64,000 bases of DNA from a virus. Positions 25,678-46,654 of the stretch are shown one piece after another. The notes under the pieces are model-generated. The model had not been told where the DNA came from and did no database searches. It saw only the letters and a program-made list of their open reading frames with translations. Each line of letters starts with the position of its first letter. Positions within the stretch are counted from its first letter, which is position 1. Position numbers and translations under genes: made by a program. The stretch spans positions 1 through 64,000 of the IMG/VR virus record IMGVR_UViG_3300009104_002192; one strand, 5' to 3'.

Positions 25678-25678
25678 C

Positions 25679-26202: not shown

Positions 26203-26233
26203 ATAACCTCAATCAAGAAAGGGTCAGAGTCTA

Positions 26234-27076
26234 ATGGTTATGTCAAAGAATCACCAAGCGTTAAACCCCCACTATGCAAGTTACAATTTTCTTCCTGTTA
26301 TGAGTCGAGAGGAGGAGCTTGAGGTGGGTGCAAAACTATCTAGTAAAAACGAAAGAGAGAGGAGAAAAGCTCAAGAAGAATTTGTTAACAGAAATTTAAG
26401 GCTGGTAATAAAAATTGCTTCTGGATACTCAAGGTGTGGTCTTGAGTTAGACGACATGGTTTGCGAGGGAAATATGGGATTAATGGAAGCGGCTAAAAGG
26501 TATGACCCATTAGTAGGGACGAAGTTCAGCACTTATGCCGCTTATTGGATTCGTCAAAAAATAACCAGAGCATTATGTAATCATGGACGTTTAATTAGAT
26601 TGCCTGTCCAGTTGGTTCAGTTACAACTAAAGGTTATCAAGTATGTAGACTCTTATTCTCAAGAGAACAATAACGAGGCTACCCCCAAACAAATTGCTGA
26701 AGCGTTGGAGGAGCCTGTCCATTTAGTTGAGAAAGTATTAAATTCAAAATACACTTTTACAAGCGTCGATTCTTTAATGTGCGCTGACGATGCTGCCTCA
26801 AGTTTTGGTAGCGTATTTGCTGATGAGAAAACTGATTCTCCATTAGACTCTCTTGTTAAGAATAATGACAAAGAAGTAATAAATAAATTCTTGAATAAAC
26901 TTAAAGACAGAGAAAAGTATATCATTGAGCATAGGTTCGGTCTTAATAATAAAGATATAAAAACTTTAGAAAAAATAGGTGAAGAATTTAATGTCACTAG
27001 GGAGAGGATCAGACAGGTTGAGTTTGAGGCCATGAAGAAGTTACGTTTTGCAATACAGAAAGCGTATAAGGACTAA
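26234..27076 (+). CDS. Sigma-70 family RNA polymerase sigma factor (RpoD-like, lacks region 1.1)
   Basis: Directs host RNA polymerase to promoters. Seen: region 2 from about residue 45, RNLRLVIKIASGY, DMVCEGNMGLMEAAKRYDP, FSTYAAYWIRQKITRAL (2.3/2.4); region 3 after IRLP; and region 4.2 TLEKIGEEFNVTRERIRQVE near residue 245 as the -35 reading helix. 280 aa resembles group 2/3 sigma factors. Start ATG 26234 has AAGAAAGGG 10 bases upstream; ATG 26240 is an alternative. It could serve the P1 or P2 promoters found throughout 21-47 kb (inference). Confidence 0.93.
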   Translation: MVMSKNHQALNPHYASYNFLPVMSREEELEVGAKLSSKNERERRKAQEEFVNRNLRLVIKIASGYSRCGLELDDMVCEGNMGLMEAAKRYDPLVGTKFSTYAAYWIRQKITRALCNHGRLIRLPVQLVQLQLKVIKYVDSYSQENNNEATPKQIAEALEEPVHLVEKVLNSKYTFTSVDSLMCADDAASSFGSVFADEKTDSPLDSLVKNNDKEVINKFLNKLKDREKYIIEHRFGLNNKDIKTLEKIGEEFNVTRERIRQVEFEAMKKLRFAIQKAYKD

Positions 27077-27085
27077 TTCCTTCTT

Positions 27086-27173
27086 GGGGAAGTGGTGGAA
27101 TTGGCAGACACAACAGACTTAAAATCTGTCGAACATTGAGTTCGTGCGGGTTCAAGTCCCGCCTTCCCTACCA
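27086..27173 (+). tRNA. tRNA-Leu (anticodon UAA)
   Basis: The 88-nt cloverleaf includes an encoded CCA. Acceptor GGGGAAG pairs with CTTCCCT. The anticodon stem is ACAGA/TCTGT, with loop CTTAAAA giving anticodon TAA at 27120-27122. The long variable arm CGAAC-ATTGA-GTTCG marks a class II (Leu) tRNA, and the T-arm GCGGGTTCAAGTCCCGC is canonical. It reads UUA/UUG, fitting the AT-rich codon use here. Confidence 0.97.
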
Positions 27174-27192
27174 ATCTTTTTTTAATATAAAA

Positions 27193-27807
27193 ATGTTTGA
27201 TGAATTTAAAACAATTTTTTCCAAACTCAAAGGTAGAGTTAATGAAAAGAGAAAGAAACTTGATAAGATTAAATTTAATAAGGTCGGAACTGGTGGAGCT
27301 AAAGAATATGGGATAAATGATGAAGAAGTTCAGAACTTAAAAGAGGTACGAAAGTTAAGACGTAAACCGCGACTGTACGGTAGACGTAAAAATTTCCGTC
27401 AGATTGCTGACGAGATGAACAAACAAGGACGTAAGAATCGTCAGGGTAATCCTTGGACAGAGCAAGCTATTAGAGTTATGTTTATTGATCGAACCGATAG
27501 AACTAAAGCTAATAAAAGACGTAAAAATCAGATTAAAAGTCTTGAAGCGGAGGTGGAATTTGATTTAACCCTTGAATACCTAGCTGAACTTTGGGAACAA
27601 CAAAAGGGTTTGTGTGCTATCACTGGATTAAAAATGATTAAACCGGATCAGCCTAGATCACCTTTAAATGGTTCACCAGATAGAGTAGATTCCAGTAAAG
27701 GCTACGTTAAAGGTAACGTCCAGTGGTTATGCACGTTTGTTAATTATGCTAAAAATGATTTCAATAATAGGGAAATTAAGGAGATATTTCAAGCTATTAA
27801 GATTTGA
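27193..27807 (+). CDS. HNH endonuclease with recombinase-like helical region
   Basis: C-terminal residues 140-200: QKGLCAITGLKM, SPLNGSPDRVDSSKGYVKGN and VQWLCTFVNYAKNDF, an HNH variant common in phages (C..TG ... DR.d...GY..gN). Residues 75-110 (IADEMNKQGRKNRQGNPWTE) resemble the helical segment in serine recombinases that reads repeats. ATG 27193 chosen; the frame stays open upstream through the tRNA, which is not coding. Lies directly beside the tRNA gene. Confidence 0.8.
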   Translation: MFDEFKTIFSKLKGRVNEKRKKLDKIKFNKVGTGGAKEYGINDEEVQNLKEVRKLRRKPRLYGRRKNFRQIADEMNKQGRKNRQGNPWTEQAIRVMFIDRTDRTKANKRRKNQIKSLEAEVEFDLTLEYLAELWEQQKGLCAITGLKMIKPDQPRSPLNGSPDRVDSSKGYVKGNVQWLCTFVNYAKNDFNNREIKEIFQAIKI

Positions 27808-34242: not shown

Positions 34243-34270
34243 TTGTGTCTGTTTTAACTATGTGCATAAT
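34243..34270 (+). promoter_or_regulatory. P1 promoter
   Basis: TTGTGT (34243-34248), 16-bp spacer with TAACTATG, CATAAT (34265-34270). ATG of the RuvB-like gene 9 bases after the -10. Confidence 0.75.
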
Positions 34271-34278
34271 TGATAAAG

Positions 34279-35226
34279 ATGAGCGACAAAACCACTAAAC
34301 TATTTCCTGACATTGTTGGTCAGGACAAAGCAAAGAAGAAACTTATGTTCTTCCATCGAGGCTATAAAGCCTCTGGGATCATTCCACACCTTATGTTTAT
34401 CGCACCCAAGGGATGCGGTAAGACCACTCTTGCCAAAGCTATTGGTAAGAACCTTGAGGGTGAGAAGGGCAAGCCAAAGCGTTTCCTTGAGATCAACTGT
34501 TCTACTATCAAGAACGTGAAGCAGTTCTTCAATCAAGTAATCGTACCTCACGTTGCGAATAAAGAATGTACCGTTCTTTTTGACGAAGCCAGCGAGCTTC
34601 CCAAGGATGTGACAATGATGTTACTGACCTGTCTGAACCCGAACGAGAACAATCGTAACGAGTTTGCGTATGAAGATTATGTTGTTGATTTCGATTTTCG
34701 TATCCACTCGTTTCTGTTCGCCACTACCGAAGCTCATAAGATTTTCCATGCGTTGATGGATCGTTGCGAGCGTATTGATCTGGAGGAATACTCCTATAAT
34801 CAGTTAGGCACGATCATCTCTCGTCAGATGAAAGGTATTAAGTTTGAGAAGGGCGTTCTTGAGGATGTCGCCACTATCCTGCGAGGCAACGCCCGTGCTG
34901 CTCAAAAGATGGCAAACAACATGAAATCCTACTTAAAGGTTAAGGGTTCTGATAAGTTTATGAACAAAGATTGGGAGATCATGCGTGACGAATTGGGCAT
35001 CCTACCTTTAGGCGTGAATCGTATTGAGCTTATCGTGTTGAAGGCACTGAAGGAGAAAAAAGAATGTTCACTGACTCACCTTGCTGCCAAGACGGGGTTG
35101 ACTCCTCAATGTCTGCGTCAAGATTTTGAGATGTACCTTCAGAAGATGAATCTGATGGAGATTACAACCAGTGGTCGTGCGCTTACCAAAACAGGGCATG
35201 AATACTTGGAGCGGGAGGATGTTTAA
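34279..35226 (+). CDS. RuvB-like AAA+ ATPase
   Basis: Seen: DIVGQDKAKKKL near residue 10, Walker A APKGCGKTTLAKA near residue 37, Walker B CTVLFDEASEL near residue 95, the sensor FLFATTEAHK, the arginine-finger-like DRCER, and a C-terminal winged helix (SLTHLAAKTGLTPQCLRQDF, then SGRALTKTGHEYLE) that matches the RuvB C-terminus. 315 aa (RuvB about 335). Branch migration or clamp-loader-type DNA work is expected. RuvA and RuvC are not in the window. Confidence 0.85.
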   Translation: MSDKTTKLFPDIVGQDKAKKKLMFFHRGYKASGIIPHLMFIAPKGCGKTTLAKAIGKNLEGEKGKPKRFLEINCSTIKNVKQFFNQVIVPHVANKECTVLFDEASELPKDVTMMLLTCLNPNENNRNEFAYEDYVVDFDFRIHSFLFATTEAHKIFHALMDRCERIDLEEYSYNQLGTIISRQMKGIKFEKGVLEDVATILRGNARAAQKMANNMKSYLKVKGSDKFMNKDWEIMRDELGILPLGVNRIELIVLKALKEKKECSLTHLAAKTGLTPQCLRQDFEMYLQKMNLMEITTSGRALTKTGHEYLEREDV

Positions 35227-36281: not shown

Positions 36282-36760
36282 AGTTCTTTGAGAGATTGAC
36301 AATTTAAGTTGCGGAAACGCGACAACAATTTAAGCTGACGACGGTTGGCTTAAGGGAATGGCTGAACAACCCTCCATCATAAGGGGTAAGGCATAGGGAT
36401 ACGTGTTAGAGTATAATCGTATGAGACACGTGTTTCTAGTAGACTGGTAAACTTGAACTGTATTGTGCACTGGTCTTGATGGTAATGCAGCAATCCATCT
36501 TCCCATTAATTTTGTGCGTGGTGCTGGGTTACAGGCCACGTAACAGGAAGAAACACAGGTTACCTCAACCGGAAGCGCGTAAGTATTCCTCGCGTCTGCA
36601 AAGGGAGAAGCAGCGGGTAACCAACGTGAGATCCCAAAATTTCCGTAGTCCAAAATCAAAGGGCTACGGTTTCAACAAGGTCGGGAAAAACAAACGCAGT
36701 TGATGCGCCCGTTAAAGATGAGTTCACACCGAACGTGACCATCGCCTTGTTATTTTTTTT
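36282..36760 (+). ncRNA. Candidate large structured non-coding RNA, about 480 nt
   Basis: Transcribed from its own P1 promoter. Visible stems: GUUGCG-GAAA-CGCGAC (36308-36323, a GNRA tetraloop) flanked by two ACAATTTAAG direct repeats; ACGTGT/ACACGT (36401/36426); GCGTGG/CCACGT in the middle; CCGTAGTCC/GGGCTACGG (36643-36669, 9 bp); then GATG-GTTC/GAAC-CATC before ATTTTTTTT at 36752-36760 as the end. The only ORF (36476-36703) lacks a ribosome-binding site. I do not recognise it as RNase P, tmRNA or a group I intron. The size and phage setting recall the ROOL/GOLLD type of ornate RNAs. Confidence 0.55.
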
Positions 36761-36770
36761 GCCCTAATAG

Positions 36771-36809
36771 CACTTGGCACGAATCGTGCTGCCCGATTTC
36801 AACCAAGTG
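36771..36809 (+). repeat. 39-bp palindromic repeat, copy 1
   Basis: Starts CACTTGGCACGAATCGTGC and ends ACCAAGTG. Outer arms CACTTGG/CCAAGTG. First of eight dispersed copies between 36.8 and 46.4 kb, each 39 bp. Confidence 0.9.
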
Positions 36810-36821
36810 TCAAGCGTAAAG

Positions 36822-36830
36822 TTATTCACA
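36822..36830 (+). promoter_or_regulatory. DnaA-box-like site TTATTCACA
   Basis: Matches the TTATNCACA DnaA-box consensus; 12 bp after repeat copy 1. The rest of 36831-37040 holds no gene, only two CGCTCATT direct repeats (about 36954 and 36993). Confidence 0.5.
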
Positions 36831-37040
36831 CCTCAAAAAATTTCTTAAAATCAACGAATTTCACACCGGAGAAAGTGGGGGTAAACAAGAAATTTTCAGG
36901 CATGATACCTCACAAAAGCAGGGCTTTCTTTCAAAACAATTACCCCCTTTGTCGCTCATTAATTGCCATAATTGATTGACAAACTATTTTGCCGCTCATT
37001 TGTGATCGACAAAAAAATGCATCTAATGTGCATTTAATGC

Positions 37041-37068
37041 TTGTCACAGGCTTAACTATGCTTATAAT
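37041..37068 (+). promoter_or_regulatory. P1 promoter
   Basis: TTGTCA (37041-37046), 16-bp spacer with TAACTATG, TATAAT (37063-37068). The ATG is 52 bases downstream, with AAAAGGAAC as ribosome-binding region. Confidence 0.82.
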
Positions 37069-37119
37069 GGTTATAACAGTTTGAGACATTAACACTAGAA
37101 AAAAGGAACTATATATATT

Positions 37120-38022
37120 ATGCCTATAGAAGCAAAACAACAGATTGATGAGGGCTACGACTTCACCGCCAAACAGGTTGAAGTACCCCATCCAATCACC
37201 GGAAAAAAATCCGGTTATTACATGAACATCCGTGAAGACACGGGCGACATCATGGGGTGGACTACTGACCGTTACGGTCTGGTTAATCACCGTGACATAG
37301 TAGGGTTTGCAGACAATGCGTTTGCTGACCGTGGTATCGAGGTTAATCGTAAAGTTTACGTGACCGAAAACGGTGCGAAGTGCCGTGCGGTTTATGACCT
37401 TATCGGTTCGGAATATCAAGCGGAAGTTCCCCAAGTCGGTGACATTATGGGCTATCGTTTGACTGCTCAAAACTCGCTTGACCGTAGTCTTCGGATGGCT
37501 TATTCGTTAGGCTTAAAGCGTCTGGCTTGTTTGAATGGCATGACCACAACCGAGTCGGAAGTGGAAATGACAAAGAAACATTCTTTGAATGTTAACTTGA
37601 ACGAGGTGCTTTCTCCAAAAGCCTTGGATACTGCTCTTGCCAAGATGAAGCAGAGCCTGACTGTTTACGGTCGGTTGTCGCAGTCGGAAGTTTCTCAAGA
37701 GCAAGGAATCATTATCCTTCAGAACCTAGCAAATGCCAAGGTGTTTTCTGAAAAGGTGCGTGAGTCTATCGCTCAAGTTTGGAACGGCCAACCAGAGGGA
37801 CTTGGCAGAGGTGGAGATGCCGATAAGAGTCGGAACCTTTACAACCTTAACAATGCCGTCACGGAGCATTTGACCTATGAGGTTGCGGATACTCGTTTCG
37901 AGTATGCAAATCGTGTGACCTCTCAAGTCTTAAAGAGGTTCGACAAGGCGACTCGGAACCAAAAAGTTTTGGAGAAACTTTGGACTCCCGCCAAAAATGA
38001 TCAAATAGTGATTACTGAGTAG
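37120..38022 (+). CDS. DUF932 family protein
   Basis: Seen: GYYMNIREDTGDIMGWTTDR near residue 31, YGLVNHRDIVGFAD, RAVYDLIG, GDIMGYRLTAQNSLDRSL near residue 107, and LGLKRLACLNGM near residue 130, the pattern of DUF932 proteins common on phages and plasmids. 300 aa. The function of the family is not established. Confidence 0.75.
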   Translation: MPIEAKQQIDEGYDFTAKQVEVPHPITGKKSGYYMNIREDTGDIMGWTTDRYGLVNHRDIVGFADNAFADRGIEVNRKVYVTENGAKCRAVYDLIGSEYQAEVPQVGDIMGYRLTAQNSLDRSLRMAYSLGLKRLACLNGMTTTESEVEMTKKHSLNVNLNEVLSPKALDTALAKMKQSLTVYGRLSQSEVSQEQGIIILQNLANAKVFSEKVRESIAQVWNGQPEGLGRGGDADKSRNLYNLNNAVTEHLTYEVADTRFEYANRVTSQVLKRFDKATRNQKVLEKLWTPAKNDQIVITE

Positions 38023-38033
38023 GCTACCCAACC

Positions 38034-38074
38034 GATCCCCTCGCTGCGTTAATCGTGGCGGGGGGATTTTTTTT
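38034..38074 (+). terminator. Rho-independent terminator
   Basis: ATCCCC-T-CGC pairs with GCG-GGGGAT across a short loop, followed by TTTTTTTT. Confidence 0.88.
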
Positions 38075-38144
38075 GCCCGTTTAAATAATAACTATTAAAT
38101 AACGATTATTAAATAGACCCGAAAAAATAATAACACCAAATAAG

Positions 38145-38183
38145 CACTTGGCACGGATCTTGCAGCCTGATTTTTAACTAGTG
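38145..38183 (+). repeat. 39-bp palindromic repeat, copy 2
   Basis: CACTTGGCACGGATCTTGC... ends AACTAGTG. The most diverged right arm; still 39 bp and followed by GTCAAGCG, as in copy 1 (TCAAGCG). Confidence 0.8.
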
Positions 38184-38212
38184 GTCAAGCGAAAAAAAAA
38201 GAAAAAAAATGC

Positions 38213-38240
38213 TTGCATGAGTCTTAACCATCCCTATAAT
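38213..38240 (+). promoter_or_regulatory. P1 promoter
   Basis: TTGCAT, 16-bp spacer with TAACCATC, TATAAT (38235-38240). ATG 8 bases after the -10. Confidence 0.88.
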
Positions 38241-38247
38241 TAAGAAC

Positions 38248-38427
38248 ATGAGCAAAACATACGGAACCTATCAAGCAAGAAACGCTGTCAAAGCAGCACA
38301 AGTCACCAACCATATCAAAGCACAGAAAAAGATTGGCGTAACTCACGAGGAAGCTAAGGCTGAAGCCTATCGGATCTTCAACATCAAGGCAGCATTACCA
38401 ATCTTAACCCGTCACTTCTTACTTTAG
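38248..38427 (+). CDS. Small basic protein, 59 aa
   Basis: Ala/Lys-rich helical protein (YQARNAVKAAQVTNHIKAQ). Not recognised. Directly behind its own promoter with no leader. Confidence 0.65.
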   Translation: MSKTYGTYQARNAVKAAQVTNHIKAQKKIGVTHEEAKAEAYRIFNIKAALPILTRHFLL

Positions 38428-38430
38428 GGG

Positions 38431-38458
38431 TTGACACGAGGCTAACTTTCGCTATAAT
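38431..38458 (+). promoter_or_regulatory. P1 promoter
   Basis: TTGACA (38431-38436), 16-bp spacer with TAACTTTC, TATAAT (38453-38458). ATG 9 bases after the -10. Confidence 0.88.
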
Positions 38459-38466
38459 TAAGGAAG

Positions 38467-38658
38467 ATGAAAATTAAAGGAATCAGAAACGGTTCGTTAT
38501 ATTATAACGAAGGAACCCAACGAGTAGAACGTGTTCGTAGTAAAGCGAATAGTCAATCAGTTTTCACCACTGTCCATAACAAAGCGTTGGCTGTGGTTCC
38601 GGCTAAATCTTTGAATTTGGCTAGTGGAGAACAGATTGCAAGCTACTTGCAATCATAA
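38467..38658 (+). CDS. Small basic protein, 63 aa
   Basis: MKIKGIRNGSLYYNEGTQRV begins a probable small beta-barrel-like protein; ends LASGEQIASYLQS. Not recognised. Own promoter and terminator. Confidence 0.7.
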   Translation: MKIKGIRNGSLYYNEGTQRVERVRSKANSQSVFTTVHNKALAVVPAKSLNLASGEQIASYLQS

Positions 38659-38662
38659 ACAT

Positions 38663-38704
38663 AACCCTCTCGCCCTTTCTTTACTTTTGGGTGAGAGGGT
38701 TTTT
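38663..38704 (+). terminator. Rho-independent terminator
   Basis: AACCCTCTC-G-CCC pairs with GGG-T-GAGAGGGTT, followed by TTT; the next -35 starts 3 bases later. Confidence 0.88.
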
Positions 38705-38706
38705 AC

Positions 38707-38734
38707 TTGTTAAGAATATAACTATCATTATAAT
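38707..38734 (+). promoter_or_regulatory. P1 promoter
   Basis: TTGTTA, 16-bp spacer with TAACTATC, TATAAT (38729-38734). ATG 8 bases after the -10. Confidence 0.82.
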
Positions 38735-38741
38735 TGGAACT

Positions 38742-39314
38742 ATGAAAGAAACACTTAAAGATTTAGGGAATACCGCTTTGGATATTCTGTTAACCCTTAT
38801 TTTAACTTTGCTTGCCTTGCATATGCTTTTGTTTGCTGCTGTGTCAGTAGCATCAGCGCAAGAGCTAACGCCCGACCAAACAGTTGTCGCAAAGACTATT
38901 CTTGGCGAAGCGCGTGGAGAAGGTAAGGCGGGTATGTATGCCGTTGCTTGTGTCATAGCGCAACGAGCAATTCTGCGGAACAAAACTCCAAAAGAAGTTT
39001 GCAAACAGCCTTCGCAATTTTCTTTTTGGGTTAAAGATAAAAAAACTACCCTTGACGACAGGAATAGAGCAACGGTTGAGCGGCTTATGAAGCACGATAT
39101 CGAATCAGTGCGTTACGCTAAAGCTTTGGCTATTCATGTAATGAAAGTAGATCGTTCTTATACTGACCACGCAGACCACTATTGCGCGACAAGAGTTAGT
39201 CCTTACTGGGTAAGAGGGAGGACACCTGTAAGAATCATAGGCAATCATAAATTCTTTAGAATTAACTCCAGAGTTTTTGGAATAACAAAATCTTCTGTCT
39301 TGACTCAACCTTAA
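38742..39314 (+). CDS. SleB-type cell-wall hydrolase, secreted
   Basis: Hydrolase_2 family. Seen: a signal or anchor helix at about residues 14-38 ending SVASAQE, then VVAKTILGEARGEGKAGMYA near residue 50 with the catalytic Glu, VIAQRAILRN, FSFW, and HYCATRVSPYW near residue 147. 190 aa. Expected to cleave peptidoglycan as an endolysin (signal-anchor type) or accessory wall enzyme. It is far from the holin/spanin cluster at 61.7-63 kb. Confidence 0.85.
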   Translation: MKETLKDLGNTALDILLTLILTLLALHMLLFAAVSVASAQELTPDQTVVAKTILGEARGEGKAGMYAVACVIAQRAILRNKTPKEVCKQPSQFSFWVKDKKTTLDDRNRATVERLMKHDIESVRYAKALAIHVMKVDRSYTDHADHYCATRVSPYWVRGRTPVRIIGNHKFFRINSRVFGITKSSVLTQP

Positions 39315-39327
39315 CCATCATTATAAT
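39300..39327 (+). promoter_or_regulatory. P1 promoter
   Basis: TTGACT, 16-bp spacer with TAACCATC, TATAAT (39322-39327). The -35 lies in the 3' end of the hydrolase gene. ATG 10 bases after the -10. Confidence 0.9.
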
Positions 39328-39336
39328 TAAGAAACA

Positions 39337-39666
39337 ATGAAGGCAATCATAGAAATCGAATTAGGCAACTCATCATTTGGCAACAACGATGCTGAAAGAC
39401 TATTTGAGATGCGAAACGTCATTGAAAGACTAATGGACAACGCTGACCGTATTATGGCAGCAGACGTTGGAGACTTCACAACCGCGCAAGACGCTAACGG
39501 TAACACGGTCGCTAGAATGGACATCGTAGAAGGTGGCAGGACACCAAAGATGTACGGTCTGGAAAATCAAGCACCTGATCAGCAACTGAACGTAGACCCC
39601 GCAGACAAGTATCAAGAGATGCGGAATGAAAACTGGGCAGACTCAAACGTCAGCGACCCATACTAA
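39337..39666 (+). CDS. Hypothetical protein, 109 aa
   Basis: MKAIIEIELGNSSFGNNDAE then helices and an acidic, Asn-rich end. Not recognised. Confidence 0.7.
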   Translation: MKAIIEIELGNSSFGNNDAERLFEMRNVIERLMDNADRIMAADVGDFTTAQDANGNTVARMDIVEGGRTPKMYGLENQAPDQQLNVDPADKYQEMRNENWADSNVSDPY

Positions 39667-39670
39667 AATT

Positions 39671-39883
39671 ATGAGCGACTATTGGACCGGACTTGTTAAC
39701 TATAAACCAAAAAAGAAAATGACTGATAAAGAATCAAAGCAATTAGATATCTGTCTTGCGTTGTTGGCAATGGCATCCGCAAAGGGAGCGCACCCCACGG
39801 ATATGCTTAACGCATTCACCTTTGATATGAATCTAATAAGGAACGGGGAAGATCCTACTGAAACTCAAAAACTAATTGAGTAA
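39671..39883 (+). CDS. Small hypothetical protein, 70 aa
   Basis: ATG 39671 follows the previous stop by 4 bases. Central helix QLDICLALLAMASAKGA. Not recognised. Confidence 0.65.
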   Translation: MSDYWTGLVNYKPKKKMTDKESKQLDICLALLAMASAKGAHPTDMLNAFTFDMNLIRNGEDPTETQKLIE

Positions 39884-39902
39884 TTTCTGATATAAAAACT
39901 TG

Positions 39903-39941
39903 CACTTTATGTAAATCGGGCCGCACGATTCGTGCCAAGTG
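39903..39941 (-). repeat. 39-bp palindromic repeat, copy 3 (reverse)
   Basis: On the minus strand it reads CACTTGGCACGAATCGTGCG...AAAGTG. Left arm perfect, right arm degenerate. Confidence 0.85.
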
Positions 39942-39963
39942 CAAGTAAAGTTTTCGAAAAAAG

Positions 39964-39972
39964 TTATTCACA
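39964..39972 (+). promoter_or_regulatory. DnaA-box-like site TTATTCACA
   Basis: Matches TTATNCACA; 22 bp after repeat copy 3 and 5 bp before the P2 -35. Confidence 0.5.
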
Positions 39973-39977
39973 ATGCC

Positions 39978-40006
39978 TTGACAGGAGGGCGTTTCTGTGT
40001 TATATT
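39978..40006 (+). promoter_or_regulatory. P2 promoter
   Basis: TTGACA (39978-39983), 17-bp spacer ending CTGTGT, TATATT (40001-40006). ATG 8 bases after the -10. Confidence 0.85.
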
Positions 40007-40013
40007 TATTTCA

Positions 40014-40160
40014 ATGAAAGTGAGAAGGAAAAGAAAACGCAGAGCAAGAGCGAGAGTGAACCGCGAAGGCTTTATGAATAGCGCAACCCGTGAACATCGC
40101 GTGAAGAAGGGTAAAGGCTCTTTTAGGCGTAGAAAAAAACATCAAAAAAAATTCGATTAG
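40014..40160 (+). CDS. 48-aa strongly basic protein
   Basis: MKVRRKRKRRARARVNREGF and a second basic cluster SFRRRKKHQKK. About half the residues are Arg/Lys. Presumably binds DNA or RNA. Own promoter, apparently leaderless. Confidence 0.65.
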   Translation: MKVRRKRKRRARARVNREGFMNSATREHRVKKGKGSFRRRKKHQKKFD

Positions 40161-40163
40161 GGC

Positions 40164-40192
40164 TTGCATTGTCCTGCTCGACCTGTCATAAT
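40164..40192 (+). promoter_or_regulatory. Promoter (TTGCAT/CATAAT)
   Basis: TTGCAT (40164-40169), 17-bp spacer, CATAAT (40187-40192). Lacks the TAAC word of P1. ATG at 40216. Confidence 0.6.
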
Positions 40193-40215
40193 CCTATCCA
40201 GAAAGTAAATCAATT

Positions 40216-40656
40216 ATGTATAACAACCACACAAACACAAAACTAGAGTATCAAGACTTCAGCACTAAAATCATCGTTGCCATCACTGGCGCACCTGAAG
40301 ATGTGGAAGCTGATTTCTGGGGATTCTTCAACACCAACGCCACCGATGCGGGATTGCATCATTTTGGCGAGGCGCGTATTCATTGGCTAACACCTACCAC
40401 CGCGCAATTTTACACAACCCGTGAGCGTTTGCTTGCTGGTATGGAATTGCGAGCTTTGAACAAACTTCTAAACGAGTCTGCCGATGGTTACAAAGGCACA
40501 AAAGGCGGTGCGTTGGCAGATGCTAAACAAATGGCGCAAGAGTGGTTTGACTCGATGGAACGTGTCACGGACATCATCAAAAAGAATGTGCGAGAGACTA
40601 CTTACGGCATGGGAACCATCTCGGCCGAAAAGCCTGACAGCGATTATAGTGCTTGA
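40216..40656 (+). CDS. Hypothetical protein, 146 aa
   Basis: Mixed alpha/beta with LHHFGEARIHWLTPTTAQFY near residue 46. Not recognised. The stop overlaps the next -35. Confidence 0.7.
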   Translation: MYNNHTNTKLEYQDFSTKIIVAITGAPEDVEADFWGFFNTNATDAGLHHFGEARIHWLTPTTAQFYTTRERLLAGMELRALNKLLNESADGYKGTKGGALADAKQMAQEWFDSMERVTDIIKKNVRETTYGMGTISAEKPDSDYSA

Positions 40657-40680
40657 ATCAATCTTAACTATCTGTATAAT
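40653..40680 (+). promoter_or_regulatory. P1 promoter
   Basis: TTGAAT (40653-40658), 16-bp spacer with TAACTATC, TATAAT (40675-40680). ATG 9 bases after the -10. Confidence 0.88.
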
Positions 40681-40688
40681 TAACAAAG

Positions 40689-41432
40689 ATGAACGACCTA
40701 TTAAAATTTGGAGATCCGAACTCCAAGCTAAAGAAAATGATTCGGAAGCTTGGGCTTAAACTAAAAACCTTCACGCTTCCCGCTGGACACACTTGCCCCG
40801 GAGCAAAAGACTGTTTATCAAAAGCAGATCCTGAAACCGGAAAGATTCAAGACGGGCCAGATACGGAGTGGCGATGCTTTGCCGCTAGTGCAGAGGCAAC
40901 GTATCCGTCATTGCGTAAAATGGTTTGGCATAACTTCGACTTGCTAAAGCAAGCTTTGAAATTAGACCAAGAGGCAGGATTTGAGAACTGCCCACACACT
41001 ACCGATTTAATCAATCGGAGCTTGCCCAAAAAGTTTGACATCATGCGTGTCCACGTTGGCGGGGATTTCTTTTCAAAGCGTTACTTGCAAGCGTGGGTTG
41101 ACGTTGCAAGGCAAAACCCTGACAAGGTTTTTTATGCCTACTCGAAAAGTCTTAATTTCTTTTTGGAATGGGCGTTGCCTTCTAACCTTGTCTTGACTGC
41201 CTCGCGTGGTGGCAAGCATGATGAATTGATTGACGTTGCCGGTTGGAAAGAAGCTGTTGTTGTTTACAGTGAGCAAGAAGCAATCGACAAAGGTTTAGAA
41301 ATCGACCACGACGACACACACGCAGCGTTTGGAAAAGAAAACTTTGCGTTGTTAATTCACGGGACACAGCCAGCAGGGAGTATGGCAAGTAAGGCGTTGC
41401 AACTTCTTAAACGGGGAAAGGTTGCCGCGTGA
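40689..41432 (+). CDS. GP88-like phage protein
   Basis: Seen: FGDPNSKLKKMIRKLGL, FTLPAGHTCPGAKDCLSKAD near residue 34, EWRCFAASAEATYPSLR near residue 61, HVGGDFFSKRYLQAWVDVA near residue 122 and YAYSKSLNFF near residue 149. These match the phage GP88 family, with conserved cysteines suggesting a metal centre. 247 aa. Biochemical role unknown. Confidence 0.75.
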   Translation: MNDLLKFGDPNSKLKKMIRKLGLKLKTFTLPAGHTCPGAKDCLSKADPETGKIQDGPDTEWRCFAASAEATYPSLRKMVWHNFDLLKQALKLDQEAGFENCPHTTDLINRSLPKKFDIMRVHVGGDFFSKRYLQAWVDVARQNPDKVFYAYSKSLNFFLEWALPSNLVLTASRGGKHDELIDVAGWKEAVVVYSEQEAIDKGLEIDHDDTHAAFGKENFALLIHGTQPAGSMASKALQLLKRGKVAA

Positions 41433-41491
41433 GCTTAGAAGTAATATTTATAATTGCCTTTTTAATATTTCTTTTCCAGCTACAAAAATGA
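41429..41491 (+). CDS. Possible 20-aa membrane peptide
   Basis: GTG start overlapping the GP88 stop; encodes one hydrophobic helix (IFIIAFLIFLF) with a short polar end. Supported only by overlap and hydrophobicity. Confidence 0.25.
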   Translation: MSLEVIFIIAFLIFLFQLQK

Positions 41492-41547
41492 AAATCCGAA
41501 TAACAAACAAAGGCCCGCCCTAAAATTTTTCTTAAAAAAAGCTTGAC

Positions 41548-41586
41548 CACTCGCCAAAAATCGGGCAGCACGATTCGTGCCAAGTG
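41548..41586 (-). repeat. 39-bp palindromic repeat, copy 4 (reverse)
   Basis: Minus-strand reading CACTTGGCACGAATCGTGCT...GCGAGTG, followed by GTCAAGC as in copies 1 and 2. Confidence 0.87.
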
Positions 41587-41696
41587 CTCAAAGCTAGGTG
41601 GGACATTGGCTGTCCACCCACTTAAATTATTTTTCAGACCGCTATTTGAGCCCACAAAAACAGGGTTATTCTGCACCATTTTTTTTTGCGTATCAC

Positions 41697-41725
41697 TTGC
41701 ATTATTCGTAAAAGTGGAGTATATT
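41697..41725 (+). promoter_or_regulatory. P2-like promoter
   Basis: TTGCAT (41697-41702), 17-bp spacer ending GTGGAG, TATATT (41720-41725). ATG 6 bases after the -10. Confidence 0.7.
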
Positions 41726-41730
41726 AAGGT

Positions 41731-42009
41731 ATGTTAAACAAAGAACTAACAGTAGAACAAGAAGCTCAACTCCTACTCAACCAAGAGATTGAGGTAACAA
41801 GCTCACGCATCATGCAGCTTTGGGGTAAGCGTGGAATCGTTGAGGCTGTCATGGCAGATGGTCGTACGTTAGACATTAAGCTAGCTGATGGCAAGAGCGT
41901 TTTCCTAGATGTCACCTTTGTGGGTGAAGTGCGGGAAGGCATAGCGTTTGCCAAGCAAGAACAGTCTCTTGGCCCAATCGCTAACAGCGTAGTGAAAAGC
42001 ACTCTTTAG
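41731..42009 (+). CDS. Hypothetical protein, 92 aa
   Basis: N-terminal helix then a beta-rich part (VEAVMADGRTLDIKLADGKS). Not recognised. Confidence 0.7.
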   Translation: MLNKELTVEQEAQLLLNQEIEVTSSRIMQLWGKRGIVEAVMADGRTLDIKLADGKSVFLDVTFVGEVREGIAFAKQEQSLGPIANSVVKSTL

Positions 42010-42011
42010 GC

Positions 42012-42039
42012 TTTACAGGCATTTAACTATCCCTATAAT
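42012..42039 (+). promoter_or_regulatory. P1 promoter
   Basis: TTTACA (42012-42017), 16-bp spacer with TAACTATC, TATAAT (42034-42039). ATG 8 bases after the -10. Confidence 0.8.
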
Positions 42040-42046
42040 TATAACA

Positions 42047-42307
42047 ATGATGAACGAACTAGACCAATTCAAAGAAGATACCGCGATGCGCCTGTTTGGG
42101 CGTAGTCGTCGCCTTGCCATCGCTGGCAACCAATGCGTTAAGTGTGGCGCACACGATCTTGAGTTCCGTGACGAACTCAGCAGCAAGGAGCATGGCATCT
42201 CCGGTTTCTGCCAGTCCTGTCAGGACGACATCTTTGGCCCCAGCGATGAGGAGAAAGAGGAGGTTCTTGGAATCACTCACCAAATGTTTGGAGGTGAAGA
42301 ATGTTAG
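42047..42307 (+). CDS. Zinc-ribbon protein, 86 aa
   Basis: CVKC near residue 30 and CQSC near residue 55 probably bind one zinc. The C-terminus is acidic. Start at 42047 or 42050 (tandem ATG). Overlaps the next gene by 7 bases. Confidence 0.7.
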   Translation: MMNELDQFKEDTAMRLFGRSRRLAIAGNQCVKCGAHDLEFRDELSSKEHGISGFCQSCQDDIFGPSDEEKEEVLGITHQMFGGEEC

Positions 42308-42858
42308 ACATCACTGACAAAAAAGCTGTAAGAAAAACTTTCCGCCGTGATGTTTACCGCAATCTTCATTTCAGAGATGAGGTTGTCTATTCTGTGCGTA
42401 AAGATGGTCTGGTTGAGGGTCACGCCCTTTGTTATGTAATGGATGGCGTTACCTTTCACGTTGGGCCTAAAGGCAACCAGCGTGTGCGTGATGAGGAGCG
42501 TAAAAACGTTCACGCTGTTATTCGCGGGCACGTTATCAATGCCGTTTGGTATGATGAGGATGAGATGGAATGGGCCAAGAGTGCTGCCCAACAATTGGCT
42601 GAGATAGAAATGTGTGGTGTGCCTGTGAGTCGTAACACGAATGTAAGTGACTTGGATGATCCGCGCGCGTGGGAGCCTATGTATAAATGGGTAGAGGTTA
42701 AGTATAACCCTTATAAGTTCAAGAGCTTTGTCAGCCCTGTTTATTTGCCATTTGGTTCCGAGGAGCCAGAATTCAGACCCATCTTTGAGGCTCGTAAGGT
42801 TGTTATTTACAGCGAGGACAACAAGAGCAAAGTCATGGCAATGGTTCCAATTATTTAA
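42301..42858 (+). CDS. Hypothetical protein, 185 aa
   Basis: Beta-rich with GHALCYVMDGVTFHVGPKGN and HAVIRGHVINAVWYDEDEME. Not recognised. Confidence 0.7.
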   Translation: MLDITDKKAVRKTFRRDVYRNLHFRDEVVYSVRKDGLVEGHALCYVMDGVTFHVGPKGNQRVRDEERKNVHAVIRGHVINAVWYDEDEMEWAKSAAQQLAEIEMCGVPVSRNTNVSDLDDPRAWEPMYKWVEVKYNPYKFKSFVSPVYLPFGSEEPEFRPIFEARKVVIYSEDNKSKVMAMVPII

Positions 42859-42899
42859 CTTGCCCTTCTTAACTAATTCAACGAAACCTTATTCTGTAT

Positions 42900-43148
42900 A
42901 TGAAAAATTCAAAGAAAACTGATAAAATCCTGAACGAACTCCGTCGTCAGGGATGCACGATTAAAGAGAAGAAAAACAATGTGATGATTATTCCTCCTGA
43001 TTCGAATGTGGAAGCTTACACTGTCCATAGAAGTGACAGACACGTTGGAGCATTGATTGACCATTGCTTGAAAAGATATAGCCACCTTTTGAATTTCAAG
43101 AAGCTGGCAAAGTATCACAAGAGATTTCAAAACGGAGCGAAGGACTAA
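42900..43148 (+). CDS. Small basic protein, 82 aa, HicA-like layout
   Basis: ILNELRRQGCTIKEKKNNVM then IIPPDSNVEAYTVHRSDRHV resembles the helix-then-three-strand layout with a conserved His of HicA mRNA-interferase proteins. No HicB partner is adjacent, so this is a weak suggestion only. Confidence 0.55.
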   Translation: MKNSKKTDKILNELRRQGCTIKEKKNNVMIIPPDSNVEAYTVHRSDRHVGALIDHCLKRYSHLLNFKKLAKYHKRFQNGAKD

Positions 43149-43153
43149 ACACG

Positions 43154-43180
43154 AGCGGCGCGAGCCGCTTTTTATTTTTT
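43154..43180 (+). terminator. Rho-independent terminator
   Basis: AGCGGC-GCGA-GCCGCT hairpin followed by TTTTATTTTTT. Confidence 0.93.
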
Positions 43181-43185
43181 ACTTG

Positions 43186-43224
43186 CACTTGGCACGAATC
43201 CGGCAGCACGATTCATGCCAAGTG
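43186..43224 (+). repeat. 39-bp palindromic repeat, copy 5
   Basis: CACTTGGCACGAATCCGGC...GATTCATGCCAAGTG; the outer 9-bp arms CACTTGGCA/TGCCAAGTG are perfect. Confidence 0.92.
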
Positions 43225-43228
43225 CTAT

Positions 43229-43237
43229 TGTGAATAA
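43229..43237 (-). promoter_or_regulatory. DnaA-box-like site (reverse)
   Basis: TGTGAATAA, the complement of TTATTCACA, 4 bp after repeat copy 5. Confidence 0.5.
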
Positions 43238-43264
43238 CTTTCTGAAAAAAATGCCTTCCAGCCC

Positions 43265-43293
43265 TTGACAAACGGTCGTTTGTGTGTTATATT
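43265..43293 (+). promoter_or_regulatory. P2 promoter
   Basis: TTGACA (43265-43270), 17-bp spacer ending GTGTGT, TATATT (43288-43293). ATG 9 bases after the -10. Confidence 0.88.
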
Positions 43294-43301
43294 TATACAA
43301 G

Positions 43302-43742
43302 ATGAACGAAGAAAGACTAAAACCACTTTTTGATTTAGACGGAACCCTAATCCGTGAGGATCGTGACAGCGATCGCCTTTTTGATTTCTTTCGCCCTCAC
43401 GCTATCCTCGCACTAACAGAAGATGATTTAACTCCTCTCGGCGTACTCGTTAGAGACTCTGGAAAAGAATTTGATATCCTTACAGCGAGAGGCCATAAAA
43501 ACGCAGAATTTGTTCGCATCGCTCTTACTGCTCTCGGATTCAATGTAAACAAGATCGTCACCGTTGGAGTAGACATTAACTCTCCAGAAGACATGGATAA
43601 CGTCAGCAGCAAAAGAGTAGCGGAAAGGAAAATCAGAATCGCCAAATTTGTTCAAAGAAAATTAGTTGACAATGACGAACGGAATCTGGTAGGATTGGGC
43701 GAGTTAGGAGAATTAGTAAGCCAAGATCAAAAGGAATTTTAA
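43302..43742 (+). CDS. HAD-like phosphatase
   Basis: Seen: PLFDLDGTLI at residues 9-18 (nucleophile DxD), DILTARGHKN near residue 55 (motif II), and LVDNDERNL near residue 126 (motif IV region). 146 aa, a small cap-less HAD enzyme. Phage relatives include 5' nucleotidase/polynucleotide phosphatase types. Substrate unknown. Confidence 0.75.
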   Translation: MNEERLKPLFDLDGTLIREDRDSDRLFDFFRPHAILALTEDDLTPLGVLVRDSGKEFDILTARGHKNAEFVRIALTALGFNVNKIVTVGVDINSPEDMDNVSSKRVAERKIRIAKFVQRKLVDNDERNLVGLGELGELVSQDQKEF

Positions 43743-43744
43743 TT

Positions 43745-43978
43745 ATGATAAAGAACGGAAAAGAACAAAACGTAGTACCCACCACACGCAAACAAAACCT
43801 TGCTGCTGCCAAGGCTTGTGACGACCACTATGAGGCTTGCAGCTTGTTTCGGGCGTTGCAGTACGCCAACAACATGGGAACAGGTGAGGATGACTTTGAC
43901 GAATTGGCAGAGCATTTCATCAACAAGCAAGGGCTTACGGACTACTGCGAAAACGGATTTAAGAAAGTTAATCGGTAG
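43745..43978 (+). CDS. Hypothetical protein, 77 aa
   Basis: Helical, acidic, with ACDDHYEACSLFRALQYANN. Not recognised. The end runs into the 23-bp inverted repeat. Confidence 0.65.
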   Translation: MIKNGKEQNVVPTTRKQNLAAAKACDDHYEACSLFRALQYANNMGTGEDDFDELAEHFINKQGLTDYCENGFKKVNR

Positions 43979-44010
43979 GACTACGGATGTCCTACCCCCT
44001 GTGGTATACT
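43974..44010 (+). promoter_or_regulatory. Inverted-repeat promoter, copy A
   Basis: GGTAGGAC-TACGGAT-GTCCTACC (43974-43996), then exactly 8 bases CCCTGTGG and TATACT (44005-44010). No TTGACA; the repeat occupies the -35 region. ATG 7 bases after the -10. Confidence 0.75.
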
Positions 44011-44016
44011 ATACGT

Positions 44017-44187
44017 ATGAAAATGATTATGAAAGACATAGAACTAAACGAAAACGGAAACGCCGTGGTAGACGGCACAGAGTATGAAGTGCGTGGATTT
44101 GACCACGAAGGACAAGAGGCGATCGTGATTCACGAATTGGATTTGATTTCTTACGACGAAGGCGATAACTGGGAGGAAATGGAATAG
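44017..44187 (+). CDS. Small acidic protein, 56 aa
   Basis: MKMIMKDIELNENGNAVVDG begins a beta-rich acidic protein. The first ATG (44017) would be leaderless; ATGs at 44023 and 44029 are alternatives. The similar MKMIMK start at 46,661 shares the same promoter type. Confidence 0.65.
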   Translation: MKMIMKDIELNENGNAVVDGTEYEVRGFDHEGQEAIVIHELDLISYDEGDNWEEME

Positions 44188-44190
44188 ATT

Positions 44191-44454
44191 ATGACATTTA
44201 ACGATTTGAAATTTAGCGACATATCTGAAACGCATGGAGAAGATGCAATTCAGGCGTATGTGGAATTGCCGAATGGTTATGATGTTTCCGTGGTGAAGCA
44301 TCGGTTTTCATACGGTGGCGAAAAAGGTATGTATGAGATTGGTTGCTTCTTTAACAATCACATGGTTGATCCTGCTGACTGGGGTGATACCGTCAAGGGT
44401 TGGTTGAATGAAAGTGATGTAGAAGATTGGATAAATGTGATTAAAAAATTATGA
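44191..44454 (+). CDS. Hypothetical protein, 87 aa
   Basis: Alpha/beta with YVELPNGYDVSVVKHRFSYG. Not recognised. Overlaps the next gene by 4 bases. Confidence 0.65.
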   Translation: MTFNDLKFSDISETHGEDAIQAYVELPNGYDVSVVKHRFSYGGEKGMYEIGCFFNNHMVDPADWGDTVKGWLNESDVEDWINVIKKL

Positions 44455-44567
44455 GAGAATTAGATTCCATTATGTTTATTGTTTTCTTTTTAATGCTTTG
44501 CGCTATTGGCGTTTTTGTTATAGGCGTAGCGCATGACGCTTACATTGTTTGGTATATAAACAATTAA
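44451..44567 (+). CDS. 38-aa membrane peptide
   Basis: MRELDSIMFIVFFLMLCAIG followed by more hydrophobic residues. ATGA overlap with the preceding stop supports translation. Confidence 0.5.
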   Translation: MRELDSIMFIVFFLMLCAIGVFVIGVAHDAYIVWYINN

Positions 44568-44568
44568 A

Positions 44569-44694
44569 ATGAATATTTCAACAAACAAAAAAACAGGCAC
44601 GACTACAATCGTAATTTCTTCTAAATTAAAAGAGAAATTTTATAGTATTCTTATAGCTTTTGCTTTGGGGTTAATTATCGGTTGGATATTTTAG
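44569..44694 (+). CDS. 41-aa membrane peptide
   Basis: Polar first 23 residues, then a C-terminal hydrophobic helix ILIAFALGLIIGWIF, suggesting a C-tail anchor. Confidence 0.45.
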   Translation: MNISTNKKTGTTTIVISSKLKEKFYSILIAFALGLIIGWIF

Positions 44695-44699
44695 GCTTG

Positions 44700-44738
44700 C
44701 ACTTGGCACGAATCCGGCTGCCCGATTTATGCCAAGTG
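44700..44738 (+). repeat. 39-bp palindromic repeat, copy 6
   Basis: CACTTGGCACGAATCCGGCT...TATGCCAAGTG, followed by GTCAAGAAC. Confidence 0.92.
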
Positions 44739-44786
44739 GTCAAGAACTTCTTAACAGGGAGAGAATAACTTTCTTTATTTAAAGGG

Positions 44787-44815
44787 TTGACAAATGGGCG
44801 TTTGCGTGTTATATT
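44787..44815 (+). promoter_or_regulatory. P2 promoter
   Basis: TTGACA (44787-44792), 17-bp spacer ending GCGTGT, TATATT (44810-44815). ATG 7 bases after the -10. Confidence 0.88.
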
Positions 44816-44821
44816 TATACC

Positions 44822-45133
44822 ATGAAGATGATACTGAAAGCTGCCCGCAACGCAAGCCGCCGCACTCGTAACCGTGTCCGTGAGCACGGGCCCGTGTTCG
44901 AGGACGTTACCCGTCAACATACTGGGCGTAACTTGGGCAGGGGAGTGGTGGATGGTATGGACTGTGTATTGGTGCGTGCTGGTAGCTGGTTTGGCTGGCT
45001 ACCCATAGATGAGATTGAGCGCACCACTGAGGGTGGGGTTAAGTTCTGCTGGCCATTAGATGAGGATGGTGACTTAGGTAGCGCAGGGTGGCTATGCTTA
45101 AACCATCAGGCATGGCTTAAAGAGCGTGAATAA
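44822..45133 (+). CDS. Hypothetical protein, 103 aa, GC-rich gene
   Basis: Arg-rich start (KAARNASRRTRNRVREHG), Trp-rich end. Base composition is clearly more GC-rich than the genes at 1-35 kb, hinting at recent acquisition. Not recognised. Confidence 0.7.
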   Translation: MKMILKAARNASRRTRNRVREHGPVFEDVTRQHTGRNLGRGVVDGMDCVLVRAGSWFGWLPIDEIERTTEGGVKFCWPLDEDGDLGSAGWLCLNHQAWLKERE

Positions 45134-45141
45134 CTTACCCC

Positions 45142-45170
45142 TTGACAAGCACCCCTATGTGTGTTATATT
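45142..45170 (+). promoter_or_regulatory. P2 promoter
   Basis: TTGACA (45142-45147), 17-bp spacer ending GTGTGT, TATATT (45165-45170). ATG 7 bases after the -10. Confidence 0.88.
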
Positions 45171-45176
45171 CTTACC

Positions 45177-45419
45177 ATGATGAATGACATGAGCAACACC
45201 ACCAACCACGACGCGCGTATCTCCTGCGAGGAGGCCTTCACTGAGGACATGGGCCCTGCCCATTGGGCTAATGAACCTGAGCAGCCCACCCACAAGGAGG
45301 TAGCTGGTGTGTGTGAGGATGCCCCTTGCTGTGGGTGCTGTGGTGACAGCATGGACGATGGCTATGGCACGTATGCTGATGATGCGTGGCATGATGCCAA
45401 CGAGTACCCTGACTGGTAG
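45177..45419 (+). CDS. Cys-containing acidic protein, 80 aa
   Basis: Contains APCCGCCGDSM near residue 48 (four Cys in six residues), which could bind a metal, and a very acidic Asp/Tyr/Trp tail. GC-rich like its neighbour. Not recognised. Confidence 0.65.
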   Translation: MMNDMSNTTNHDARISCEEAFTEDMGPAHWANEPEQPTHKEVAGVCEDAPCCGCCGDSMDDGYGTYADDAWHDANEYPDW

Positions 45420-45424
45420 GGTAG

Positions 45425-45463
45425 CACTTGGCACGAATCGTGCAGCCAGATCGGGGCCAAGTG
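45425..45463 (+). repeat. 39-bp palindromic repeat, copy 7
   Basis: CACTTGGCACGAATCGTGCA...GGCCAAGTG, between two convergent genes, followed by GTCAAGAAC as in copy 6. Confidence 0.92.
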
Positions 45464-45478
45464 GTCAAGAACTTTCTT

Positions 45479-45754
45479 TTATTCTTTCTCGTCTTCCCAG
45501 TAGTAGCCTTCCGGTGGCATGATCTCGTTAAGGGTTGTACCTGTTGCCTTGCTCACTATGTATGGCTTAAGCTCTGCCATGTCTACCATACCCCATTCTT
45601 TAGCGAAGCCCATTACATAGCCGAAGCTCAAGCCGTAGCTGTCTTCTTCTTCTAGGTAATACTCCCAACCATTACGCAGGATGATGTGTTGAGCCACAGC
45701 GAAAGGCTCTTTCGTGTCTTCATTGTTCGAGTTGATGATATTTCTTGTTTTCAT
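45479..45754 (-). CDS. Hypothetical protein, 91 aa
   Basis: Minus strand. MKTRNIINSNNEDTKEPFAV start; contains GWEYYLEEEDSYGLSFGYVM. Not recognised. The last gene of the minus-strand island. Confidence 0.65.
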   Translation of the reverse strand: MKTRNIINSNNEDTKEPFAVAQHIILRNGWEYYLEEEDSYGLSFGYVMGFAKEWGMVDMAELKPYIVSKATGTTLNEIMPPEGYYWEDEKE

Positions 45755-45761
45755 AATTCAA

Positions 45762-46004
45762 TTACCTTTCAACACCAAGCTCTTTGTGGAGCTTGTTAAT
45801 CTTATTAGTAGTGTGATTCCAAATCACTTTCATATCATTGGTGCGGTAAATCGCAGCACTACCAACACCGCCAAAGTGTTTACCATGAATTCTGACTTCA
45901 ACGTCATTAACTTCAATTTGTGTCACAACGTCAAAGCGCGTGATGTTCTCAGCAATAAATTCTTGCTCTTCTTTATTTAGTTCTATGTTTTTCATATTCT
46001 TCAT
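45762..46004 (-). CDS. Hypothetical protein, 80 aa
   Basis: Minus strand. MKNMKNIELNKEEQEFIAEN then VEVRIHGKHFGGVG. The first ATG is 7 bases from the -10 of inverted-repeat promoter B, so it would be leaderless; ATG 45995 is an alternative. Not recognised. Confidence 0.65.
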   Translation of the reverse strand: MKNMKNIELNKEEQEFIAENITRFDVVTQIEVNDVEVRIHGKHFGGVGSAAIYRTNDMKVIWNHTTNKINKLHKELGVER

Positions 46005-46010
46005 GCGTCT

Positions 46011-46047
46011 AGTATACCATACAGGGTGGGACATCCGTAGTCCTACC
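46011..46047 (-). promoter_or_regulatory. Inverted-repeat promoter, copy B
   Basis: Minus strand: GGTAGGAC-TACGGAT-GTCCCACC (46047-46025), 8 bases, then TATACT (46016-46011). ATG 7 bases on. Confidence 0.75.
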
Positions 46048-46243
46048 AGTTAATTTCTTTCACTCGAATGCTGCCGAGTCGGGCAACATCAGGAAACATC
46101 TTTGCGGCTACTCTGTGAGCGTGTGCCATATCAAATGCTTGAATAGTTTCTGTTTGCTCGCAAGCGGGACGGCTAGGGTCAACTTGCGTTACTAGGGTTA
46201 GTTGGAATAGTTTGTCTTTTATCATGTCTGTTTCAATCATCAT
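46043..46243 (-). CDS. Hypothetical protein, 66 aa, AHA-motif
   Basis: Minus strand. Beta start, then TIQAFDMAHAHRVAAKMFPD. The same pattern, IKAMDEAHARRIIA, occurs in the divergent plus-strand gene at 46446, so the two look like paralogues of one small domain. The end overlaps promoter B. Confidence 0.65.
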   Translation of the reverse strand: MMIETDMIKDKLFQLTLVTQVDPSRPACEQTETIQAFDMAHAHRVAAKMFPDVARLGSIRVKEINW

Positions 46244-46249
46244 GCGTAT

Positions 46250-46286
46250 AGTATAGCACATGAGGTGGGACATCCGTAGTCCTACC
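46250..46286 (-). promoter_or_regulatory. Inverted-repeat promoter, copy C
   Basis: Minus strand: GGTAGGAC-TACGGAT-GTCCCACC (46286-46264), 8 bases TCATGTGC, then TATACT (46255-46250). ATG at 46243, 7 bases on. Confidence 0.75.
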
Positions 46287-46316
46287 AAAAAGAAAGTTAG
46301 ATTTTTTTTACTTGAG

Positions 46317-46355
46317 CACTTGGCACGAATCGTGCCGCACGATCTATGCCAAGTG
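46317..46355 (+). repeat. 39-bp palindromic repeat, copy 8
   Basis: CACTTGGCACGAATCGTGCC...CTATGCCAAGTG. Both the outer 9-bp arms and the inner ATCGTGC/GCACGAT arms are perfect, the most symmetrical copy. It lies between divergent promoters. Confidence 0.93.
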
Positions 46356-46359
46356 CAAT

Positions 46360-46368
46360 TGTGAATAA
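46360..46368 (-). promoter_or_regulatory. DnaA-box-like site (reverse)
   Basis: TGTGAATAA, 4 bp after repeat copy 8, the same spacing as at copy 5. Confidence 0.5.
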
Positions 46369-46386
46369 CTTTATGCAGAAACACCC

Positions 46387-46415
46387 TTGACAAAGGGCGA
46401 TTTATGTGGTATACT
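46387..46415 (+). promoter_or_regulatory. P2 promoter
   Basis: TTGACA (46387-46392), 17-bp spacer ending ATGTGG, TATACT (46410-46415). ATG 31 bases after the -10. Confidence 0.82.
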
Positions 46416-46617: not shown

Positions 46618-46654
46618 GGTGGGACAGCGGATGTCTCACCCCCTGTGCTATACT
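46618..46654 (+). promoter_or_regulatory. Inverted-repeat promoter, copy D
   Basis: GGTGGGAC-AGCGGAT-GTCTCACC (46618-46640), 8 bases CCCTGTGC, then TATACT (46649-46654). ATG 7 bases on. Confidence 0.72.

Follow-up and report, generated by a model that had tools for sequence, protein, structure and literature searches.

The dispersed palindrome analyzed here is most likely a docking site for a regulator, because it usually lies whole DNA turns upstream of the promoters of small genes. Judging from sequence patterns, we consider it likely that a sequence-specific regulator, probably a dimer, binds the palindrome upstream of the promoter and that the palindrome belongs to promoter cassettes. The window, that is, the whole analyzed stretch of 64,000 nucleotides, carries eight copies, for which the sequence-only reading had proposed three possible roles: a centromere, a cluster of replication origins, or operators of one regulator. 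The last of these is supported by the restriction of the palindrome to phages, by its location ahead of promoters and by helical phasing, which is seen in each of two clades.

Eight 39-bp sites, all between genes and two of them reversed, had been described in that reading, and all were recovered where it had placed them (Table 1): each is an imperfect, intergenic palindrome of 39 bp, and those in minus orientation are copies 3 and 4. The arms reported as common to all copies held up in part. Seven of the eight copies have the left arm CACTTGGCACGAATC unaltered and the copy at 38145 differs from it by one change, whereas the right arm is less conserved than the left, CCAAGTG being absent from copies 2, 3 and 4. 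Across the copies, 11 to 16 of the 19 arm positions are symmetric. With up to three mismatches allowed, the arm matched 13 times against 0.99 expected, a count not attained in any of 100 shuffles. The wider motif scan that the same reading had recommended, performed with a weight matrix over the 142,348-bp record, revealed no copy beyond the eight, and in a near-identical contig the arm was found only at the copies already seen in the window.

Table 1. Palindrome copies, predicted promoters, DnaA-box-like words and a terminator-like element (window positions)
Feature	Position	Strand	Remark
Palindrome copy 1, core 36774-36806	36771..36809	+	14/19 arm positions symmetric
Palindrome copy 2, core 38148-38180	38145..38183	+	weakest copy, 11/19 symmetric
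Palindrome copy 3, core 39906-39938	39903..39941	-	12/19 symmetric
Palindrome copy 4, core 41551-41583	41548..41586	-	14/19 symmetric
Palindrome copy 5, core 43189-43221	43186..43224	+	16/19 symmetric
Palindrome copy 6, core 44703-44735	44700..44738	+	16/19 symmetric
Palindrome copy 7, core 45428-45460	45425..45463	+	14/19 symmetric; convergent genes either side
Palindrome copy 8, core 46320-46352	46317..46355	+	16/19 symmetric; divergent genes either side
Weaker promoter-like TTGCAT-16-TATAAT, family D3	38213..38240	+	32 bp past copy-2 core
Promoter TTGACA-17-TATATT	39978..40006	+	39 bp past copy-3 core
Promoter TTGACA-17-TATATT	43265..43293	+	43 bp past copy-5 core
Promoter TTGACA-17-TATATT	44787..44815	+	51 bp past copy-6 core
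Promoter of the same class, no palindrome directly upstream	45142..45170	+	from sequence
Promoter TTGACA-17-TATACT	46387..46415	+	34 bp past copy-8 core
Box AAAGTTATTCACA by copy 1	36818..36830	+	no clear promoter after
Box AAAGTTATTCACA	39960..39972	+	GTTATTCAC starts 15 bp before -35
Box AAAGTTATTCACA	43229..43241	-	GTGAATAAC starts 35 bp before -35
Box AAAGTTATTCACA	46360..46372	-	GTGAATAAC starts 26 bp before -35
Terminator-like hairpin + T-run, just before copy 5	43153..43179	+	GAGCGGCGCGAGCCGCTTTTTATTTTT, by eye

The record is a phage, encoding terminase, portal, head protease, rIIA, rIIB, a clamp-loader-like AAA protein and DNA ligase. At 142 kb it is not the whole genome, given that the near-identical contig continues leftwards past window position 1 for about 44 kb; the right end of the record (L141, record position ~142 kb) is a low-complexity repeat containing CCTTCGAATACTCC, where the assembly probably broke off. 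The AAA protein (34270-35226) was considered as a sigma54 activator and rejected as clamp-loader-like. A 361-aa protein at 53557, considered as a possible regulator, has a structure model without a PDB match and, because it adjoins the terminase, is a better fit to the small terminase subunit; a 109-aa protein at 33896 accompanies the palindrome in one clade only. Two other elements share the region. A manA RNA motif (RF01745; window 36331-36509, 71.9 bits, E 2.5e-16) lies just upstream of copy 1, and a second dispersed dyad, GGTAGGAC-N7-GTCCYACC, occurs at window positions 41597-41618, 43974-43996, 46025-46047, 46264-46286 and 46618-46640 as well as in contig G011. At 43974 and 46618 this dyad is joined to a TATACT promoter, with the start codon about 6 nt further on.

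Two relatives found through their terminases share the plan of the palindrome but differ in its inner bases, and from them we derived a generalised core, the 33-bp palindrome TTGGCAYG-N6-GC-W-GC-N6-CRTGCCAA. It is present on about 23 IMG/VR contigs, usually in 3-15 copies spaced about 1 kb apart that form one small-gene array upstream of terminase; where the terminase was seen, its identity to that of the window is 42-80%. The 1-bp centre alone is enriched (27 sites, compared to 0-4 for other centres). Contig G021 has a terminase large subunit divided between two open frames (25465-27296). No cultured phage emerged as a close relative when the terminase and the array DNA were used as queries, and exact-arm matches in IMG/VR outside the near-identical contig were judged from their context to be chance. 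Host chromosomes, in which the sequence-only reading had allowed that copies might be equally frequent, yielded a single match to the generalised core among 85,000 prokaryote species (one genome per species), as opposed to the ~23 viral contigs. Homology of this GC-rich match, in Ardenticatenia, was rejected as it is probably due to chance.

The palindromes are associated with predicted outward-facing promoters. Among 92 copies on twelve contigs, 55 (60%) have an outward sigma70-type promoter, predicted by consensus match, within 100 bp, compared to 13.7% of control positions, and inward promoters were found near only four. The distances from the core to the -35 element cluster near 30, 40, 50, 60 and 70 bp. 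For 39 non-redundant distances, a period of 10.0 fits best (R 0.59, Rayleigh p ~1e-6, jitter null 5e-5), with the proviso that these p-values overstate independence even after the removal of near-duplicates, because the cassettes are related by descent. At period 10, phasing is strong in one clade (p 1e-4) and weaker in the clade of the window (p 0.01-0.02). Such steps of ~10 bp are a sign of helical phasing. The array of contig G023 has a consistent layout, in which an AT-rich stretch and a TTGAC promoter come after the copy, often with a terminator-like end ahead of it. In the window, a strong promoter lies within 100 bp of four of the eight copies (3, 5, 6 and 8); copies 1, 4 and 7 have none within that distance, and our model leaves these three unexplained. 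In a separate observation, 13% of palindrome sides, versus 1.9% of controls, have a TTGAC that points into the palindrome from within 14 bp (G000, that is, this record, G021, G019 and others).

The structure of the core lends itself to a different reading, which we regard as unlikely, namely, that the palindrome consists of two sigma54-type -24/-12 sites (TTGGCACG-N6-GC-W halves) that share the central base and dock the host sigma54 RNA polymerase. The half-sites retain the sigma54 spacing GG-N10-GC along with the W after GC, and single half-sites, TTGGCACG-N4-YTGC, occur in G037, G038, L242 and L246 (also L066 and L067), with the first ATG 11-13 or 16-19 nt past the GC in 29 (about 30) cases, as suits a sigma54 start site. 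In L246, partly diverged palindromes (one arm) lie 26-27 bp upstream of single half-sites, and in G037 and G038, where GCWGC-centred palindromes have different arms, seven such palindromes directly abut a single half-site, TTGGCACG-N4-CTGC, that lies immediately ahead of a start codon. However, compared to the sigma54 consensus TGGCAC-N5-TTGC, which the sister single sites match, the palindrome keeps GG-N10-GC but not the TT of the -12 element, which is replaced by G/C and G/T. Moreover, the promoters near the palindrome are sigma70-like, the RpoN DNA-binding domain was not found in ten phage records, and no sigma54 activator above the cut-off was found in this record. Equally doubtful is the variant in which the fused sigma54-type pair would hold an idle sigma54 polymerase, or a phage protein that imitates its DNA-binding part, in helical phase with the neighbouring sigma70 promoters so as to control them, the sister half-sites being leaderless promoters.

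Within the core, TTGGCACG and GC are conserved, and the six intervening bases are variable and GC-rich; because the search pattern fixed part of this conservation, it has to be judged from the inexact-match copies and the copies in the window. A DNA site for a protein is favoured over an RNA hairpin because G-U pairs are not in excess (19 versus 30 A-C), which speaks for the palindrome as a candidate protein-binding site. The converse interpretation, as an RNA hairpin or terminator, or as an integron attC-like recombination site that moves cassettes, appears highly improbable. The palindromic form itself, the frequent homology breaks at the palindrome edge and a slight excess of inner-position pairing (50% versus 40% in shuffles that ignore lineage, p 0.002) are compatible with it, but no T-run directly follows the arms, and the palindrome differs in this from an intrinsic terminator (an RNA hairpin followed by a U-run). 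The breaks, many as they are, were rejected as proof of site-specific recombination since those at the edge are partly trivial, the palindrome itself being conserved.

Other lineages have other palindromes. In arrays of this type, contig G011 has seven copies of GGCGGGACCGGTCCCGCC-like palindromes and G001 and G010 have yet others, again located before similar promoters. Gene order in the array varies between relatives. Because of this variation, and because palindromes are swapped while the layout is kept, the cassettes appear to shuffle. G001 also contains a tandem array (L148 2216-2801) of ~65-bp units with a common AATTTAAGGGACTGCAACAC.

The DnaA-box-like TTATTCACA words that the sequence-only reading had noted beside copies 1, 3, 5 and 8 are all in place, and the conserved word proved to be longer, AAAGTTATTCACA, with four occurrences in the record, each beside a copy. 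Copies 3, 5 and 8 show the full layout with the box, and copy 6 has the same layout with a degenerate box, GAGAATAAC. The box is 14-fold enriched near the palindrome and, wherever both were seen, sits between the palindrome and the -35 element, starting ~15, 25, 35 or 40 bp before the latter (26 non-redundant distances, p ~1e-5 at 10.5 bp). The box keeps these distances from -35 even in relatives devoid of this palindrome and therefore belongs to the promoter; its binder is possibly host DnaA, an obvious candidate. The restriction of the box in this record to the vicinity of the palindromes, together with the AT-rich neighbourhoods of the sites, would fit a replication origin cluster that uses DnaA boxes, but we consider this very improbable given the phasing of the boxes to promoters, their presence in palindrome-free relatives, the palindrome without boxes in the clade at 42% identity, and a GC skew that does not change sign over the region.

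The least probable proposal, with hardly any weight in our assessment, is a centromere at which a partition protein would bind the dispersed sites and link them to a tubulin-like filament: the palindromes are indeed dispersed within ~10 kb and the tubulin-like gene noted earlier is real (PF00091, 60709-61209, E 2e-13), with counterparts in G021, G033 and G034, but ParB-type PF02195 is absent from the ten records examined, which include fragments, no tubulin turned up in the nine further contigs tested, each of which may be incomplete and among which are the six fragmentary contigs of the clade densest in copies (7-15 each), promoter phasing is unexpected for a centromere, and the phage carries rIIA and rIIB, like lytic T4-like phages.

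Taken together, these observations are best explained by a model in which the palindrome is the binding site of a regulator in the regulatory head of gene cassettes dispersed through the small-gene array of this phage group. A typical cassette comprises the terminator, or simply the end, of the gene before it, the palindrome, an AT-rich spacer, a sigma70-type promoter and one to a few small genes, with the AAAGTTATTCACA box located in the spacer in one clade. Under this model, a protein would bind the palindrome and, together with the box protein (possibly host DnaA), may touch RNA polymerase from one face of the helix in the manner of class I activators; alternatively, the two proteins could repress in a phased manner. 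The array would be switched as one regulon, and some lineages appear to have exchanged the palindrome for another, keeping the layout.

Such a model would provide a readable regulatory code for an uncultured, widespread phage group, indicating the members of the regulon, the promoter positions and bait DNA for the regulator. The exchange of one palindrome for another between sister lineages, within a kept layout, would make the turnover of regulators and operators in phages directly testable. Furthermore, two upstream sites phased to one class of promoters, one of them DnaA-like, suggest that phage expression may be coupled to the replication state of the host.

Among known systems, the sites of class I activators, such as CRP, are palindromes located at whole-helical-turn spacings upstream of -35, and the palindrome described here shares the helical-turn steps in distance from -35. 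Unlike CRP-type sites, it is 33 bp long and occurs as tens of sites in phage arrays, and its regulator is only postulated. Cluster O mycobacteriophages carry 17-bp palindromic repeats, many of them identical dyads, that are thought to bind a dimer and whose function is unknown; those repeats are mostly off promoters, and a third are inside genes (PMC4351075), whereas the present ones are intergenic and tied to promoters. In Cluster A mycobacteriophages, the stoperators are likewise dispersed sites of one regulator, according to the description in PMC4351075, but are 13 bp long, asymmetric and oriented with transcription, in contrast to a 33-bp palindrome upstream of promoters. Similarly, the SAS/ESAS of Cluster K mycobacteriophages are inverted-arm repeats ahead of many small genes, with SAS at translation starts (PMC3203893); the palindrome shares the inverted arms ahead of small genes but is far upstream of -35. 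The promoter early stem-loops (PeSLs), mobile regulatory cassettes of T4-like phages (Arbiol 2010; Comeau 2014; as cited in PMC4503421), are, as described there, also dispersed, repeated promoter units amid shuffled small genes. By the same description, a PeSL is a stem-loop that serves as a terminator and is fused to an early promoter, unlike the protein-type palindrome found here at phased distances upstream of the promoter. Lacking the stem-loop feature, the palindrome cassettes are not PeSLs, although they resemble them in layout.
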